64,000 bases of DNA. Source: Acidisphaera sp. S103 (GTDB lineage: Bacteria; Pseudomonadota; Alphaproteobacteria; Acetobacterales; Acetobacteraceae). The notes beneath the pieces were generated by a model. It was not told the DNA's origin, searched no databases, and saw only the letters and a program-made list of their open reading frames with translations. The position numbers and the translations under genes were made by a program. The stretch is from NCBI RefSeq assembly GCF_009765975.1, contig NZ_LMUJ01000108.1, forward strand, positions 58,952 through 122,951. The letters are read 5' to 3'. This document shows, piece after piece, positions 43,117-53,279 of this stretch. Every line of letters begins with the position of its first letter. Positions within the stretch are counted from its first letter, which is position 1.

Positions 43117-44886
43117 ATGTCCGGTACGACGTTGACTTCCACTGGCATAATCCAAACCTACACGGTCGCGGCAACCGGTACCTACGACATCACAGCCTTC
43201 GGCGGCCAAGGTGGCCAGGGCGGCAATGGCGGCGCCGGTGGGCTCGGTGCGGAAATCGGCGGTAGCTTCAGCCTCACGCAAGGCGAGGTGCTACAGGTCG
43301 TCGTCGGCGATACCGGCGGTAGTGGCGGTGCCGGCGCCGGTGGTGGTGGCGGTGGCACCTTCGTCATCGAGACGTTCGACGGCAGCAGCGCTGTCGATAT
43401 TCCGCTGGTGATCGCCGGCGGCGGCGGCGGCAGCGCATTCAATAAAACTTTGCCGGGCTTCCTGGGCGGCGGCGGCCAGACCGGCGGTTCCGGGCAAACC
43501 GGCAATTACAGCGGTGGTGCCGGTGGTGTCGGCGGCAGTGGCGGCGGTAACGGCGGCAAATATGGCGGCGGTGGTGGTGGATACAGTGGCGGGAACGGAT
43601 CCACCAGCAAGTCAACCAGCATCCTCCCCACCAATGGCAACGCCCGAGGCAGCGGATACAGCGGTGGCGTCGGCAACTACGGCGCCGGTGGATTCGGCGG
43701 CGGTGGCGCCGGCGGTTACGACGGCGGCGGCAGCGGCGGCGGTTTCAGCGGTGGCGGCGGCGGCGGCTACGCCCGCTTCGGCTACTACGGCGGCGGCGGC
43801 GGTGGTTCGTTGGACAACGGTACGAGCCAGACGCTGGTCGCGGCCGAGAATTCCGGCAGCGGTTTGGTCACCATCGACCTTGAACCGCCCTGCTTTCTGC
43901 GCGGCACACATATCCTGACGCCGGCCGGCGAGGTGCCGGTGGAGACGCTGCGGCCTGGTGACCTGGTCACCACTGTTTCCGGCGCACACCGCCCGCTGCG
44001 CTGGGTCGGATTCGGTCGCACGCTGGTCACCCCCCGCAACCGCGACCGAGCGACCCCGGTGGTGATCCTCCGCCACGCGCTGGGTGAGTTCCGGCCGCAC
44101 CGCGACCTCTACATCACGCGCGGGCACAGCCTGTATCTGCAGGGCGTACTGATCCCCGTCGAAGAACTGATCAATCACCGCTCGATCGCCTGGGTCGAGG
44201 AAGCACAGGTGGTGGAATATTACCACCTGGAGTTGGACAGCCACGACGTGGTGGTGGCCGAGCGCGTCGCCGCGGAGAGTTACCGCGAGGACGGCAACAG
44301 CGCGCAGTTTCAAAATGCCGCGACCCGTCCGCTGGTCCCGCCGATGCCACCATATGCGCCGGTGCTGCACGATCATCCGACGGTCGGACGGATCTGGCGC
44401 CAACTGTCCGATCGCGCCGGCCCACCTGATCTGGCACTGACCGACGATCCCGACCTGCATCTGCTCGCCGACGGCGTACGGCTGGACGCCGAACAGACCG
44501 AAGCCGGAATCTGGCGTTTCCGCCTGCCGAATCCGGTCGCCGATCTGCGCATCGTCTCACGCAGCGCCATCCCGTCGATGCTCGGCATCGCCCAGGATCA
44601 GCGCCGGCTCGGTGTCGCCTTGCGAGGCATCGTGCTGGCGCAGCAAGGCCTGCGGCTAGAGGTGGGATGGGACGACGAGAGCCTCGGCGCCGGCTTCCAC
44701 GGGCCTGAGCCAGCGGAACGCCATCGTTGGACCAACGGCGAAGCGGTATTGCCGCCGGCGCTGCTGTCGACGTGGCGCGCCGGTGCGACCGTGGAGCTGA
44801 CAGTCAACGGCCTGCTCCGCTATCCGATGCCCGTCGATCAGGCGGCGTACGCTTCTCCGGTTGACGCAGGACGCACCGCGGCCTGA
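43117..44886 (+). CDS. Glycine-rich protein with C-terminal Hint module
   Basis: 589 residues. Residues 1-250 have long stretches of Gly alternating with Ser/Tyr/Asn (YDITAFGGQGGQGGNGGAGG, SGGGGGGYARFGYYGGGGGG), as in surface glycine-rich domains. A Hint domain starts at Cys259 (CFLRGTHILTPAGEVPVETL), has block B at TRGH (Thr334, His337) and ends without the His-Asn of splicing inteins. The rest to the C-terminus (DLHLLADGVRLDAEQ, VSRSAIPSMLGIAQDQRRLG) is a domain shared with the protein at 49671-53279. No signal peptide. It could be secreted by a type I or V system, but no such genes adjoin. Confidence 0.8.
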   Translation: MSGTTLTSTGIIQTYTVAATGTYDITAFGGQGGQGGNGGAGGLGAEIGGSFSLTQGEVLQVVVGDTGGSGGAGAGGGGGGTFVIETFDGSSAVDIPLVIAGGGGGSAFNKTLPGFLGGGGQTGGSGQTGNYSGGAGGVGGSGGGNGGKYGGGGGGYSGGNGSTSKSTSILPTNGNARGSGYSGGVGNYGAGGFGGGGAGGYDGGGSGGGFSGGGGGGYARFGYYGGGGGGSLDNGTSQTLVAAENSGSGLVTIDLEPPCFLRGTHILTPAGEVPVETLRPGDLVTTVSGAHRPLRWVGFGRTLVTPRNRDRATPVVILRHALGEFRPHRDLYITRGHSLYLQGVLIPVEELINHRSIAWVEEAQVVEYYHLELDSHDVVVAERVAAESYREDGNSAQFQNAATRPLVPPMPPYAPVLHDHPTVGRIWRQLSDRAGPPDLALTDDPDLHLLADGVRLDAEQTEAGIWRFRLPNPVADLRIVSRSAIPSMLGIAQDQRRLGVALRGIVLAQQGLRLEVGWDDESLGAGFHGPEPAERHRWTNGEAVLPPALLSTWRAGATVELTVNGLLRYPMPVDQAAYASPVDAGRTAA

Positions 44887-49670: not shown

Positions 49671-52600
49671 TCAGGCCGCGCGTGACCCACACACCCCAAC
49701 CGGATAACGCGTCACCCCGCCCAGCGTCAGCGTGATCTGCAACGGTCCCGGCCACCCCTCCAACAACGCGGCCGGCAACGCCGCGTCGCCACAGGTCCAG
49801 CGACACCAGTTTTCCGGCTCGAAATCGTGGAAGCCCTCGTTAAACCGAGGATCATCCGCCTCGGTCACCAACAGTTCGGCACCCCATCCCACCGACACGC
49901 GCCGCAGCGCCACACCGAGGCAGCGTGGATCACGGGCAAAACCCAAAACCTGCGGCACAGCGGCGCGCGATACGATCCGCACCGAACCGGGCAGCGTCCG
50001 AAGCGTGAAGAGATACGCCTGCCCGCTCACCCGCGTGGGGTTCAGCCGGTGTCCGTCAACCAGCAAATGCAGATCCGGTTCCTCGGTCAGCGGCCCCACC
50101 ACAAGCTGACCGCAACGGTCCAGCAACCGCCGCCACACCGCGTCCACCGCCGGACCACCCGTCAGCACCGGCGCGCACGGCGCCTGCGCCGGCAGTTCCC
50201 AACCCGAACGAGCGTTCTGGAACAGCCAGCGGTTGCCGTCATCGCGGTAACTCTCCGTGGCCGCCCCATTCGCCAGCAGCACATCGTGCGTCGCCAGTTC
50301 CACGTGATAGAGCGACACCTCCTGTGCCCGATCGTCCCACAGAATCGACCGATGATTGACCAGGAATTCCACCGGGATCAGCAGTCCATCGAACCACAGC
50401 GCGTGCCCCTTGGTCACGCGCAGATCGGTATGCGGCATATCTGGCCCCAACGCCCCTTTGCGCACGATCACCGGCGTCGCCGCGTTGCGCCGCCCGTGGG
50501 TCGCCAGCACCTTGCCGATGCCGATCCAGACGATCGGCCGCACGCTGCCGTCGTATGTGACGACCCGGTCGCCGGCGACAAGATCCTGCACCGGGCGCTC
50601 CCCGCCTTCGGTCAGGATAAAAGTGTCGGTACAGAAACAAAGCACCGTGACATCGGACCCGTCGGCGCTGGCGAACCCGGCCAATGGAACCTCAGGCGAG
50701 GCCGCGAGCGCGATCGAGCCGCCGCTGGTGCCGAAACTCAGCCGGCCCGCGGCATAGGCGACCGTCGCCGGCGCCACGCCTGCCAGGTCGATCGTTTCTC
50801 CCGCCGCGAAATTGACGATACTGCCGGAGAAGCTGTCTGGCGCACGCACATGCAGGTAAGCGCCGGCGCCCCCGAACACGATCGTTTCGCCGCTCGCGAC
50901 CGTACCCTGCACATCCAGCGTGCCACCAGCCGCGATCGTGACCGTACCGCTCCCGTCAAGGCTCGCAACAGTCATCGTGCTCGGGTCCAGGACGATCCCG
51001 CCATTGTTGACCACGGCGTCGGCGGTCAGCGTGGCATCCAACAGGGTCAGCGTTCCGGCGTTGCTCAGCGTCGCGCCGACGGGAAGCGTGTTCGATCCAG
51101 CCAATGTCCACGACGCCCCTTCATCCACCAGGACCTGGCTGAAATCGACGAACTGTGTGCCCAACTGCGACAGCGTGCCGGCCGAGGCGGCAGACGCAAG
51201 TTCCAGCGTCGCCGCATTGACCAGGTTGAGGCCGGTCACCGTTCCGACAAAAACCGCATTCGGGTCGATAATCAGGCGGCTCGCGGTACCGCTGCGGAAA
51301 ATCACGGCGTCCTTGGTGCCGATAATGGTGCCGGCATTGGTGATGGTCACACCGCTCGCCGACCCTGCCAGGATCCCGTCATATCCGCTGATGGTGCCCT
51401 GGCTCTGGTTGGTGAGGCTCAGGCTGGCATTGGTGAACCGAACGCCCCTGCCGTTCGGCGCTGTCGTGTTGCCTGTGATCAGGCCGTCGTTCACCACGAT
51501 TGTTCCGCCGAAGACGCCGTAATAGCCGCCGATCGTCCCATTGCTCTGGTTGGTGACGCTGCCGCGCACTGCAACGCTCACGCCGCTGGCGCCGGCAAGC
51601 GTCGCATTTCCCAGGATGCTGCCGCTGTTCACGATGGAGGCGTAGGCACCGCCGGCCAAGATCCCGGTGCGCCCGATGATCGTGCCGGACGAGTCGTTGA
51701 TGACACTGCCGTCGTCCTGGAGGTAAACGCCCACGCCGCGCGACGCCGCTGTGTTCCCTTCGATGTAACCGGAATTCACCACCGTCGGGTCGCTGGAGAG
51801 TTCGCCCAAAATCCCCCAAAATCCGTTGATCGTGCCACTATCCTGGTTGGTGACGCTCCCGGTTCCGATGATAATGCCCGCGGCACCCGTGACATTCTGG
51901 TTGCCGTCAATACGGCCCGCGTTCGATACGGTTATGGTACCGCTGCCGAAAAGACCGTAAAATCCGTTCACCGAACCGGATTGCTGATTGTCGATGCTGC
52001 CGCCACCGAGTCTGATTCCGTTGCCACCCAGCGATGCGTTCCCGGCGATGGTGCCAGCATTCACCACCGTTATGACTCCCCCATCGCGGCCATACAAGCC
52101 GTCAAACCCGATGATCGAACCGGTGTTGGTGACTGTGCCGTCCTGCAAAACGATGCCGCGGTTGAACCGGGACGTCATATCGCCGGCCACGAGTCCGGCA
52201 TTCACCACGGTCACAGCGCCCCCGGCGCCGCCAAAAATCGCGTAATTCCCGCTGATCGAGCCAAGTTGTTGGTTGGTGATGTTGCCGCCATCGTCGAAGC
52301 TGACGCCTCTGCCGCCGTACTTTGTCGCGTAGCCCATGATCAGCCCGTCATTCACGATCGTCGCGCCGCTGTGGCCGCTATAGACCCCCACATGTCCGCT
52401 GATGGTGCCGCCGTAAGCATTGGTGAGGACGCCACCGATCATGAACGTCACGCCGCTGCCGTGGGTGGCGGTCGTGTTCCCGGCGATGCGCCCCAGGTTC
52501 GCCACCGTCATGGCGCCGCCAAGGACATAAATCCCGTCATACCCGCTGATCACGCCGAGACTTTGATTGGTGACAACGCCGCCGGCACCGAGAAGAATGC

Positions 52601-53279
52601 CTTTGCCGCCGGACACAGTCGCATTCCCCGCGATGCTGCCGGAATTCTCCACGGTCACCGTGTCGACAAGTTCGCTGTCGATTCCGTCATACCCGCCGAT
52701 CACGCCGAAAATTTCATTGGCGACACGGCCGCCTGCATTGAGGGTGATGCCGTTGCCGCCGGACGCAGTCGCGTTCCCCGTGATGCTACCGAAATTCTCC
52801 ACGGTCACCGGGTCGACGGACCCGCCATCGATCCCGTCATACCCGCCGATCACACCGGACGATTCATTGGTGACGCCACCGCCCGCGTCGAGGACGATGC
52901 CCCGCCCGAACCGCCCCACCGTGCCGCCCGTGATGCGGCCCGTATTCTGGACGTTCGCGGCACCCAGGCGGGCTTGAATGCCATAGAGTCCGCTGATCAG
53001 GCCGAAGTTGATGACCCCGCCGCCCGCGAAAAGGTAAATCCCCGGACTGGCCGTCGGGGCTCCGGCGATATCGCCGATATTCAGCACCGTGCCGGCGCTC
53101 CTTAGCGTGGCGCCGAGGCCAAGGATGGTGCCGGCGTTGGTGATGGACCAGACCGCGGCGAGGCTCGAGGCGTAGAGGCCGGCGTTGAGCAGACCGTTCG
53201 CGGTTATCGTCGCCGGGTCGTCAGCCGCTCCGGACAGGGTGACGAGGCCGGAATAAGTACCCGATATCGAGACGGTCAT
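49671..53279 (-). CDS. Large repeat protein with C-terminal Hint module
   Basis: 1202 residues. Residues about 45-660 contain about twelve units of roughly 49 residues of the form VxNxGxIxGNxxxxxGxGI...GGxVTNxxxGxIxGxxGI. This is a beta-helix-like, autotransporter-passenger-type repeat. After a further beta-rich part come the Hint domain at Cys881 (CFCTDTFILTEGGERPVQDL), block B TKGH, and a shared C-terminal region (VSRAAVPQVLGFARDPRCLG) like that of the protein at 43117. There is no C-terminal His-Asn, so self-cleavage at the Cys without splicing is possible. No outer-membrane beta-barrel or obvious signal peptide. Confidence 0.82.
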   Translation of the reverse strand: MTVSISGTYSGLVTLSGAADDPATITANGLLNAGLYASSLAAVWSITNAGTILGLGATLRSAGTVLNIGDIAGAPTASPGIYLFAGGGVINFGLISGLYGIQARLGAANVQNTGRITGGTVGRFGRGIVLDAGGGVTNESSGVIGGYDGIDGGSVDPVTVENFGSITGNATASGGNGITLNAGGRVANEIFGVIGGYDGIDSELVDTVTVENSGSIAGNATVSGGKGILLGAGGVVTNQSLGVISGYDGIYVLGGAMTVANLGRIAGNTTATHGSGVTFMIGGVLTNAYGGTISGHVGVYSGHSGATIVNDGLIMGYATKYGGRGVSFDDGGNITNQQLGSISGNYAIFGGAGGAVTVVNAGLVAGDMTSRFNRGIVLQDGTVTNTGSIIGFDGLYGRDGGVITVVNAGTIAGNASLGGNGIRLGGGSIDNQQSGSVNGFYGLFGSGTITVSNAGRIDGNQNVTGAAGIIIGTGSVTNQDSGTINGFWGILGELSSDPTVVNSGYIEGNTAASRGVGVYLQDDGSVINDSSGTIIGRTGILAGGAYASIVNSGSILGNATLAGASGVSVAVRGSVTNQSNGTIGGYYGVFGGTIVVNDGLITGNTTAPNGRGVRFTNASLSLTNQSQGTISGYDGILAGSASGVTITNAGTIIGTKDAVIFRSGTASRLIIDPNAVFVGTVTGLNLVNAATLELASAASAGTLSQLGTQFVDFSQVLVDEGASWTLAGSNTLPVGATLSNAGTLTLLDATLTADAVVNNGGIVLDPSTMTVASLDGSGTVTIAAGGTLDVQGTVASGETIVFGGAGAYLHVRAPDSFSGSIVNFAAGETIDLAGVAPATVAYAAGRLSFGTSGGSIALAASPEVPLAGFASADGSDVTVLCFCTDTFILTEGGERPVQDLVAGDRVVTYDGSVRPIVWIGIGKVLATHGRRNAATPVIVRKGALGPDMPHTDLRVTKGHALWFDGLLIPVEFLVNHRSILWDDRAQEVSLYHVELATHDVLLANGAATESYRDDGNRWLFQNARSGWELPAQAPCAPVLTGGPAVDAVWRRLLDRCGQLVVGPLTEEPDLHLLVDGHRLNPTRVSGQAYLFTLRTLPGSVRIVSRAAVPQVLGFARDPRCLGVALRRVSVGWGAELLVTEADDPRFNEGFHDFEPENWCRWTCGDAALPAALLEGWPGPLQITLTLGGVTRYPVGVCGSRAA

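Follow-up and report, generated by a model that had tools for sequence, protein, structure and literature searches.

A transferable Hint-plus-tail cassette in Acidisphaera sp. S103 and its family as a candidate self-processing C-terminal export tag

The described systems closest to the element reported here are the Hedgehog Hog domain, inteins and bacterial intein-like (BIL) domains, and, on the side of export, the substrates of type I secretion. Inteins carry a terminal Asn (or Gln, Asp or Glu) together with a Cys, Ser or Thr at the +1 position, as set out in the available portion of PMC4031507, and BIL domains that lack a +1 nucleophile are expected, according to the accessible part of PMC7664689, to cleave rather than splice. 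In Hedgehog, as far as the available portions of PMC7664689 and PMC9163320 go, an N-S acyl shift is combined with an outside nucleophile only. The Pfam family at issue here, Hint_2 (PF13403), is described only as a 'Hint domain', and its description includes no tail, passengers or function. BIL domains keep a terminal Asn for C-side cleavage, a residue that also appears as N143A in the titles of BIL2 structure entries. In polymorphic toxins with a pretoxin Hint, the toxin is a C-terminal domain that follows the Hint and varies, and an immunity gene lies next to the toxin gene. The papers of Amitai (2003) and Dassa (2004), reportedly the founding work on bacterial intein-like domains, may touch on Hint_2 relatives. 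Here we analyse a Hint protein encoded on the minus strand at positions 49671-53279 of a window of Acidisphaera sp. S103 DNA (the window being the whole 64,000-nucleotide stretch of contig NZ_LMUJ01000108.1), and find that its last ~320 residues, a Hint_2 domain and the tail behind it, form a transferable cassette that is probably a C-terminal tag for export, coupled to self-release or self-ligation. The original prediction for this DNA had suggested that the module was not well described, a view that the literature searched bears out: it holds no description of a Hint-plus-tail cassette (the human gene HINT2 crowds the name matches), PF13403 appears only as a list entry in the available portions of PMC12487129 and PMC4189754, DUF7024, a family that becomes relevant below, appears nowhere, and the Hint group treated in the accessible part of Burglin 2008 (PMC2362128) is a different bacterial one.

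The open reading frame at 49671-53279 begins with ATG and its translation gives a product of 1202 residues that divides into passenger, Hint and tail. A second Hint protein, of 589 residues, is encoded on the plus strand at 43117-44886, and its reading frame, Pfam and BLASTP place the same Hint (Cys259 to Ser388, 43891-44280) and tail behind a glycine-rich passenger. The alignment that had been noticed between the last ~320 residues of the two proteins was recovered by BLASTP as a single strong match (46% identity over 330 columns, E 4e-87; residues 876-1196 against 254-573), all other matching pieces being chance. Pfam finds Hint_2 in both proteins far above the cut-off of 28.4 bits (128.8 and 135.2 bits; E 2.7e-37 and 3e-39) and finds no match for the repeats or the tail of either. 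The passenger of the 1202-residue protein, residues 1-880 (50640-53279), contains no Cys and three Lys in its sequence and has a start that is not signal-peptide-like. Within it, the twelve ~49-residue repeats expected ahead of the Hint are present at about residues 93-676 (51252-53003), as located by an anchor pattern and by self-comparison. The anchor G.[IV].G..[GA][IVL], a pattern defined after inspecting this sequence, occurs 12 times (residues 93, 142, 192, 242, 291, 340, 387, 435, 482, 532, 581 and 628) at a spacing of 47-50 and a mean of 48.6, against a mean of 0.44 and a maximum of 4 in 2000 shuffles of the repeat region, and self-comparison peaks at offsets of 50 and 49; 'beta-helix-like' appears a fair reading of this passenger sequence. 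The Hint_2 domain, placed by PF13403 and by fold match, extends from Cys881 to Ser1010 (50250-50639), the latter at the position of the intein terminal Asn, with a TxxH motif from Thr956. The tail, residues 1011-1202 (49674-50249), is delimited by structure models and conservation and consists of a linker with a helix, a beta sandwich at about residues 1066-1192 (49704-50084), recognized from the models and from its relation to DUF7024-type repeats, and a free end reading GSRAA.

The cassette is present in many copies in this strain. The S103 genome (8.37 Mb in 116 contigs) has 39 Hint_2 places, 38 of them above cut-off, all of which were extended to their reading frames, and Hint and tail share one frame in 33 copies; of these copies, h09 lacks a passenger and breaks off shortly before the usual tail end, and in two others, h23 and h31, the passenger contains runs of unknown residues. 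Our S103 module alignment (A2) covers 33 of the 39 places and leaves out h01, which has lost most of its tail, h30, whose frame is left within the tail, h37 (G000:C56:3067-3465; L040), a divergent Hint_2 match of 100 bits whose C-terminal part is not alignable with the tail, the partial h38, the below-cut-off remnant h39, and h08 (L038:7921-11619, minus strand), in which the frame of a repeat passenger and Hint continues, where the tail would be, into an extra domain and then a GT4 glycosyltransferase. A tail profile run over the same genome marks 40 places; besides the Hint genes, these are a small number of short remnants and a single glycosyltransferase that has no Hint. Remnants without an intact Hint (G000:C113:8411-8698, C92:310383-310589, C43:21671-21787 and C49:219520-219639) suggest that copies of the cassette decay in the S103 genome.

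What the cassette is joined to varies greatly. We compared the S103 copies with related loci, of which there are at least 79 ('related' Hint genes and passengers denote throughout the 79 among the matches listed), with record titles that are mostly Acetobacteraceae, Rhodopila and unplaced Proteobacteria metagenome-assembled genomes, along with some Rhodospirillales and one Caulobacter. The frames upstream of the Hint range from 2 to 3315 residues, and passenger scans covered the 33 from S103 and 66 of the 79 related ones, the other 13 being incomplete, short or beyond the size limit. Cysteine is absent from 55 of these 99 passengers and occurs at most once in 80. Among the S103 passengers, Pfam finds AIDA stalks in three and, in one each, PATR, Ig-like, cadherin-like, CBM_4_9 and subtilase domains; among the related ones it finds DUF4347 in four, GH113 and PATR in two each, and single cases of GH114, Calx-beta, an M10 C-terminus, an M12B-type protease, an Hcp-like domain and others. 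Scans of single passengers confirmed GH113 (L124, L168), GH114 (L138) and S8 (h24) and returned no match for six others. From these sequences the passengers look like proteins of the outside type, adhesin-like or hydrolytic. The original prediction had proposed to tabulate passengers and neighbours genome-wide, and allowed that the tail might prove a known domain or the passengers uniform; the tail matches no Pfam or NCBIfam family and the passengers differ. Sixty pairs of S103 modules reach 65% identity or more, and in 29 of these pairs BLASTP (E 1e-3) detects no similarity between the passengers. Because close modules so often carry unlike passengers, we regard Hint plus tail as a cassette joined to differing partners. 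The tabulation of nearest genes (68 of 69, the omitted one being itself a Hint gene) gives no recurrent neighbour, each of the first 25 of 119 families accounting for at most 3 of the 68. A recurring start, M(S/T)xxI..TY...VTL....PTTI.S.G, was also seen ahead of S103 passengers of unequal length (h05, h16, h18, h32 and h22, the window protein), and may cap the repeat fold or act as a second signal.

The distribution of the module agrees with its predicted spread in the Acetobacteraceae. Of 100 genomes sampled from this family, Hint_2 was found in 79 and the tail in 70, counts that are lower bounds since part of the first-look candidates was scored (34 in S103 by this survey, against 38 above cut-off). 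Together with the 33 in-frame copies in S103 and their differing passengers, these numbers uphold the claim of a modular and widespread family. A class-wide sample of 192 genomes yielded Hint_2 in at least eight (six above cut-off) and the tail in at least three, these three all in the same family; because at most 17 candidates per genome were scored in the class-wide tail search, absence of the tail there is not proof.

The residues of the Hint domain point to a Hedgehog-like first step without splicing. Alignment A3 joins 70 of the 79 related loci with the two window modules (A4 joins 72 of the 79 with the two), and residues were counted over 103 distinct modules, 72 from A3 and 31 from A2. 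Cys1 is present in 102, the exception being the passenger-less h09, in which the Cys is perhaps only displaced in the alignment. Block B has Thr in 92 or Ser in 11, and its His is found in all 103, a conservation shared by two more His and two Glu residues. The place of an intein's terminal Asn is taken by Ser (93) or Thr (10), preceded by Glu in all 103 at the penultimate His position, and the +1 position is Tyr (99) or Phe (4). With these residues in place the last steps of an intein are unavailable, and splicing of either the intein or the BIL kind was rejected, since none of the 103 modules departs from this residue pattern at these two positions. Judged from the sequences, the residues for the first step, the N-S acyl shift, are present, and the predicted chemistry resembles that of Hedgehog rather than splicing.

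The model of the window module, with a predicted local distance difference test score (pLDDT) of 91.8, finds its best solved-structure match in the BIL domain 2lwy (Z 13.5, 117 residues aligned, root-mean-square deviation (rmsd) 2.2) and also matches Hedgehog 1at0 (Z 11.4, 115 aligned, rmsd 2.6). The ends of the aligned ranges put Ser137 of the model at the last residue of several inteins and likewise at the position of Hedgehog Cys400 if no gap falls in the last few residues. The module thus shares with the BIL match the lack of a +1 nucleophile and differs from BIL2 in having Ser/Thr for its terminal Asn, so that intein-type C-side cleavage is not expected, and in its other tail. With the Hog domain it shares the HINT fold, Cys1, TxxH, the lack of a terminal Asn, a Ser/Thr where Hedgehog has Cys400 and a second domain running to the C-terminus. 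It differs in that this second domain is a beta sandwich, whereas the sterol recognition region of Hedgehog is proposed as a helix-loop-helix in the available part of PMC9163320, and in having no clear D303, many passengers where Hedgehog has one, and an acceptor that here is only putative.

The tail itself has few recognizable relatives. Searches of Pfam and NCBIfam gave nothing convincing, DUF7024 not being among the matches of 33 tails at E<=1, and the best match among Protein Data Bank sequences had an E of 0.73. AlphaFold models the tail as a linker with a helix followed by a beta sandwich (pLDDT 89.6 when modelled alone). The one Hint-less glycosyltransferase offers a comparison: this GT4-like protein on contig C92 (G000:C92; L086:4376-8386, plus strand) continues into four tandem units matching DUF7024 (PF22895), a family that occurs nowhere else in the S103 genome and whose Pfam model also exceeds its cut-off in an E. 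coli control genome. Alignments of the tail profile to these units run over the unit borders, and when the units are re-cut at another place the alignment reaches 94.7% over 107 columns, compared with 80.4% over 71 in the native register. Because the re-cut units align better, the tail appears to be related to sandwiches of the DUF7024 type through a circular permutation; it differs from the family in being missed by the Pfam model, in its permutation and in its placement after Hint. Matches found for the tail model by VIA are too weak to identify a structural relative, the best being Hikeshi (Z 5.2, 85 aligned, rmsd 3.0), a circularly permuted glucanase (Z 4.9) and CBM6/CBM35 near Z 4.

Both ends of the Hint proteins bear on their export. 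By a simple rule, signal-peptide-like starts occur in none of 114 Hint genes and in 103 of 888 other genes of the same loci, nor does any ATG among the first 200 codons give such a start in the 99 Hint frames tried. At the other end, [AV]A is the C-terminus of 25 of 35 Hint genes in S103 and 59 of the 79 related ones, compared with 24 of 347 and 44 of 541 other genes. Behind the last conserved Tyr the S103 copies have a linker of anything from 2 to 33 residues, and those in A3 one of 4 to 24; an end that is constrained in sequence despite this variation is a better argument for C-terminal constraint than p values. Such a free end fits an export signal, with a degradation tag as its rival. The lack of a signal peptide and the constrained C-terminus are shared with type I secretion substrates; the exporter, however, is here only a candidate, and an RTX-type Pfam match (the M10 C-terminus) occurs in just 1 of the 99 passengers scanned.

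That candidate exporter lies in an operon with glycosyltransferases. In S103 the best HlyD (contig C31) adjoins an ATP-binding cassette (ABC) protein, a Sel1-repeat protein, a GT2-GT4 fusion and a GT4. Among 20 hand-picked stretches, one of which (G041) is no exporter locus and was unused, 15 from 14 genomes including S103 hold an ABC protein of at least 57% identity, with a Sel1 gene near in 14 of the 15 and GT2-GT4 within the stretch in 10; in four loci of tail-negative genomes the ABC reaches only 26-37%, and Sel1 and GT2-GT4 genes are missing. Across the 100 genomes, ABC (at least 50% identity) and tail occur together in 61, the tail alone in 9, the ABC alone in 11 and neither in 19, and at least three Hint copies are found in 51 of the 72 genomes with the ABC and in 3 of the 28 without it. 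A tree built from rpoB covers 94 of these genomes; it omits G010, G015, G035, G059 and G074 (no rpoB match at threshold) and G098 (a short piece) and includes several partial rpoB sequences, that of S103 among them. On this tree the ABC state changes about five times; contrasts in the tail agree in 5 of 5 (p 0.0625) and those in Hint copy number in 4 of 5 (p 0.375), with one contrast partner, G004, an incomplete assembly (90%, 480 contigs). Nine genomes reached via module loci include seven with a full-length ABC, two of which share contig coordinates with G070 and G016 of the 100-genome set and are therefore not independent, and one with fragments only (77% over 148 residues). HlyD as TIGR01843 is found in 96 of the 100 genomes and does not discriminate, and TIGR01842, which matches every ABC, is uninformative. 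We consider the ABC-HlyD-Sel1-glycosyltransferase operon a good candidate for the export route of the Hint proteins, on evidence that is only suggestive.

Three findings go beyond the original prediction: the loss of the residues for intein-type C-terminal cleavage, the kinship of the tail with glycosyltransferase-associated sandwiches, and the candidate exporter operon. The absent signal peptides, the intact residues for N-terminal cleavage and the conserved C-terminal end favour, as far as sequence can indicate, the secretion and self-processing that the original prediction had suggested, and support a model of the following kind. The Hint protein is synthesized with no signal peptide at its N-terminus, and the tail sandwich with its constrained [AV]A end would act as the export and recognition end. 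The exporter would most likely be of type I, with the ABC and HlyD proteins encoded beside the Sel1-repeat protein and glycosyltransferases. Cys1 would then attack the preceding peptide bond in a TxxH-assisted N-S acyl shift, leaving passenger and Hint joined by a thioester, and, provided that the placement from alignment-range ends is right, intein-type C-terminal cleavage and splicing could not follow. Because those steps are closed, the thioester would have to be resolved from outside, as in Hedgehog, either by water, which would release the passenger, or by a nucleophile held by the tail, plausibly a glycan hydroxyl, which would attach it. With either fate, many surface or secreted proteins, unrelated to one another, would be delivered and matured through one tag. 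If this is right, a single self-acting C-terminal tag sorts and matures many proteins of a large bacterial family without sortase or signal peptide; bacteria possess a Hint layout restricted to the Hedgehog half-reaction with another recognition domain, so that the origin of this half-reaction could be tested in a convenient organism; and Hint_2, found in 79 of the 100 sampled family genomes, gains a working hypothesis, with a first lead on DUF7024-like sandwiches.

Several observations weigh against such a self-processing export tag. Cleavage, export and an acceptor are what we infer from sequences and models, and the p values for the C-terminal and signal-peptide counts (Fisher p 3.8e-6 for the latter) overstate the evidence because the sequences are related. 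The [AV]A end could serve to mark proteins for degradation. Foldseek gives the tail model no match in the Protein Data Bank at E<=0.001, and model columns 42-53, where Hedgehog D303 would fall by a sequence-only placement, contain no conserved Asp. The exporter loci that we read include no Hint gene, the Hint genes themselves show no neighbour that recurs among the 68 nearest genes, nine of the 100 genomes have the tail without the ABC and eleven the ABC without the tail, and the module-bearing Caulobacter lacks an ABC of this kind (none above 34%). With only about five ABC changes on the rpoB tree, ancestry confounds the association between exporter and module, which seemed strong in the raw counts and which we have demoted for that reason.

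The alternative that survives best, and which we take as a serious but lesser possibility, is that the Hint only hydrolyses itself off after export, the tail being an export signal and folding partner and no acceptor becoming attached. A Hint thioester has no simpler fate than hydrolysis, and passengers that are hydrolases would function when free. The lack of a clear D303 counterpart would also fit cleavage: Hedgehog D303A, in the available portion of PMC9163320, still cleaves with dithiothreitol and does not complete cholesterol transfer. Release by itself, however, leaves unexplained why a conserved sandwich of ~180 residues, related to glycosyltransferase-borne repeats, should exceed the needs of a signal, and many passengers are adhesin-like and would need anchoring.

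A more tentative option is self-ligation: a surface molecule that the tail holds, probably a glycan, would take over the thioester-bound passenger, much as cholesterol receives the signal domain of Hedgehog. This option would account for the Hedgehog-like residue set and layout, Hint followed by another domain up to the C-terminus, for the kinship of the tail with glycosyltransferase-borne repeats and the Hint-GT4 fusion h08, and for the glycosyltransferases of the candidate exporter operon, and it has a precedent in Hedgehog chemistry (the accessible portions of PMC7664689 and PMC9163320). It also demands an acceptor, as yet putative; the lack of a clear D303 counterpart would speak mildly against ligation by Hedgehog's own mechanism, the fold matches of the tail to carbohydrate-binding modules are weak (Z about 4), and glycosyltransferases are common and perhaps unrelated to any acceptor. 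Its boldest form, a sortase-free, self-catalysed anchoring in which Hint transfers dozens of passengers onto a tail-held surface glycan made by the glycosyltransferases of the exporter operon, appears rather unlikely.

Quite unlikely, too, is a Hint that has lost cleavage and acts with its tail as a passive C-terminal export or anchoring domain: the literature searched reports activity for no member, but Cys1 in 102 and the block-B His in 103 of the 103 modules, kept across many genera with the lone exception in a copy without a passenger, are hard to reconcile with it. The [AV]A end might instead serve a protease that clears unexported precursors or spent Hint-tail pieces, given that ends such as -VAA and -AAA recall degradation tags of the transfer-messenger RNA (tmRNA) type and that the end is constrained although the linker varies; we hold this to be improbable, since outside-type proteins without a signal peptide need an export signal, for which the C-terminus is the best place, and the sandwich would be left unexplained. 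A polymorphic-toxin system, in which Hint frees a C-terminal toxin delivered by the long N-terminal part and which a long repeat protein with Hint near its C-terminus does resemble, is rejected as highly improbable because here the passenger varies instead of the tail and no recurrent neighbour among the 68 could be an immunity gene, and the residues for C-side cleavage are gone as well.

A second kind of tail after Hint was observed outside the Acetobacteraceae. Two genomes of another alphaproteobacterial family have at least 17 and 13 Hint_2 matches, and the nine of these proteins that were read end in an unlike tail of 46-53 residues, with RTX-like repeats in front, as judged by eye, in at least one. 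Hint and RTX domains are over-represented in fast-responding Rhodobacteraceae according to the available part of PMC12487129. The short tails (L175-L181) follow the pattern AR..L...EA..L, and five of the nine end in -AA. Within S103, the domain that intervenes between Hint and glycosyltransferase in h08 is weakly like one in the glycosyltransferase of the exporter operon (pairwise E 6e-5).

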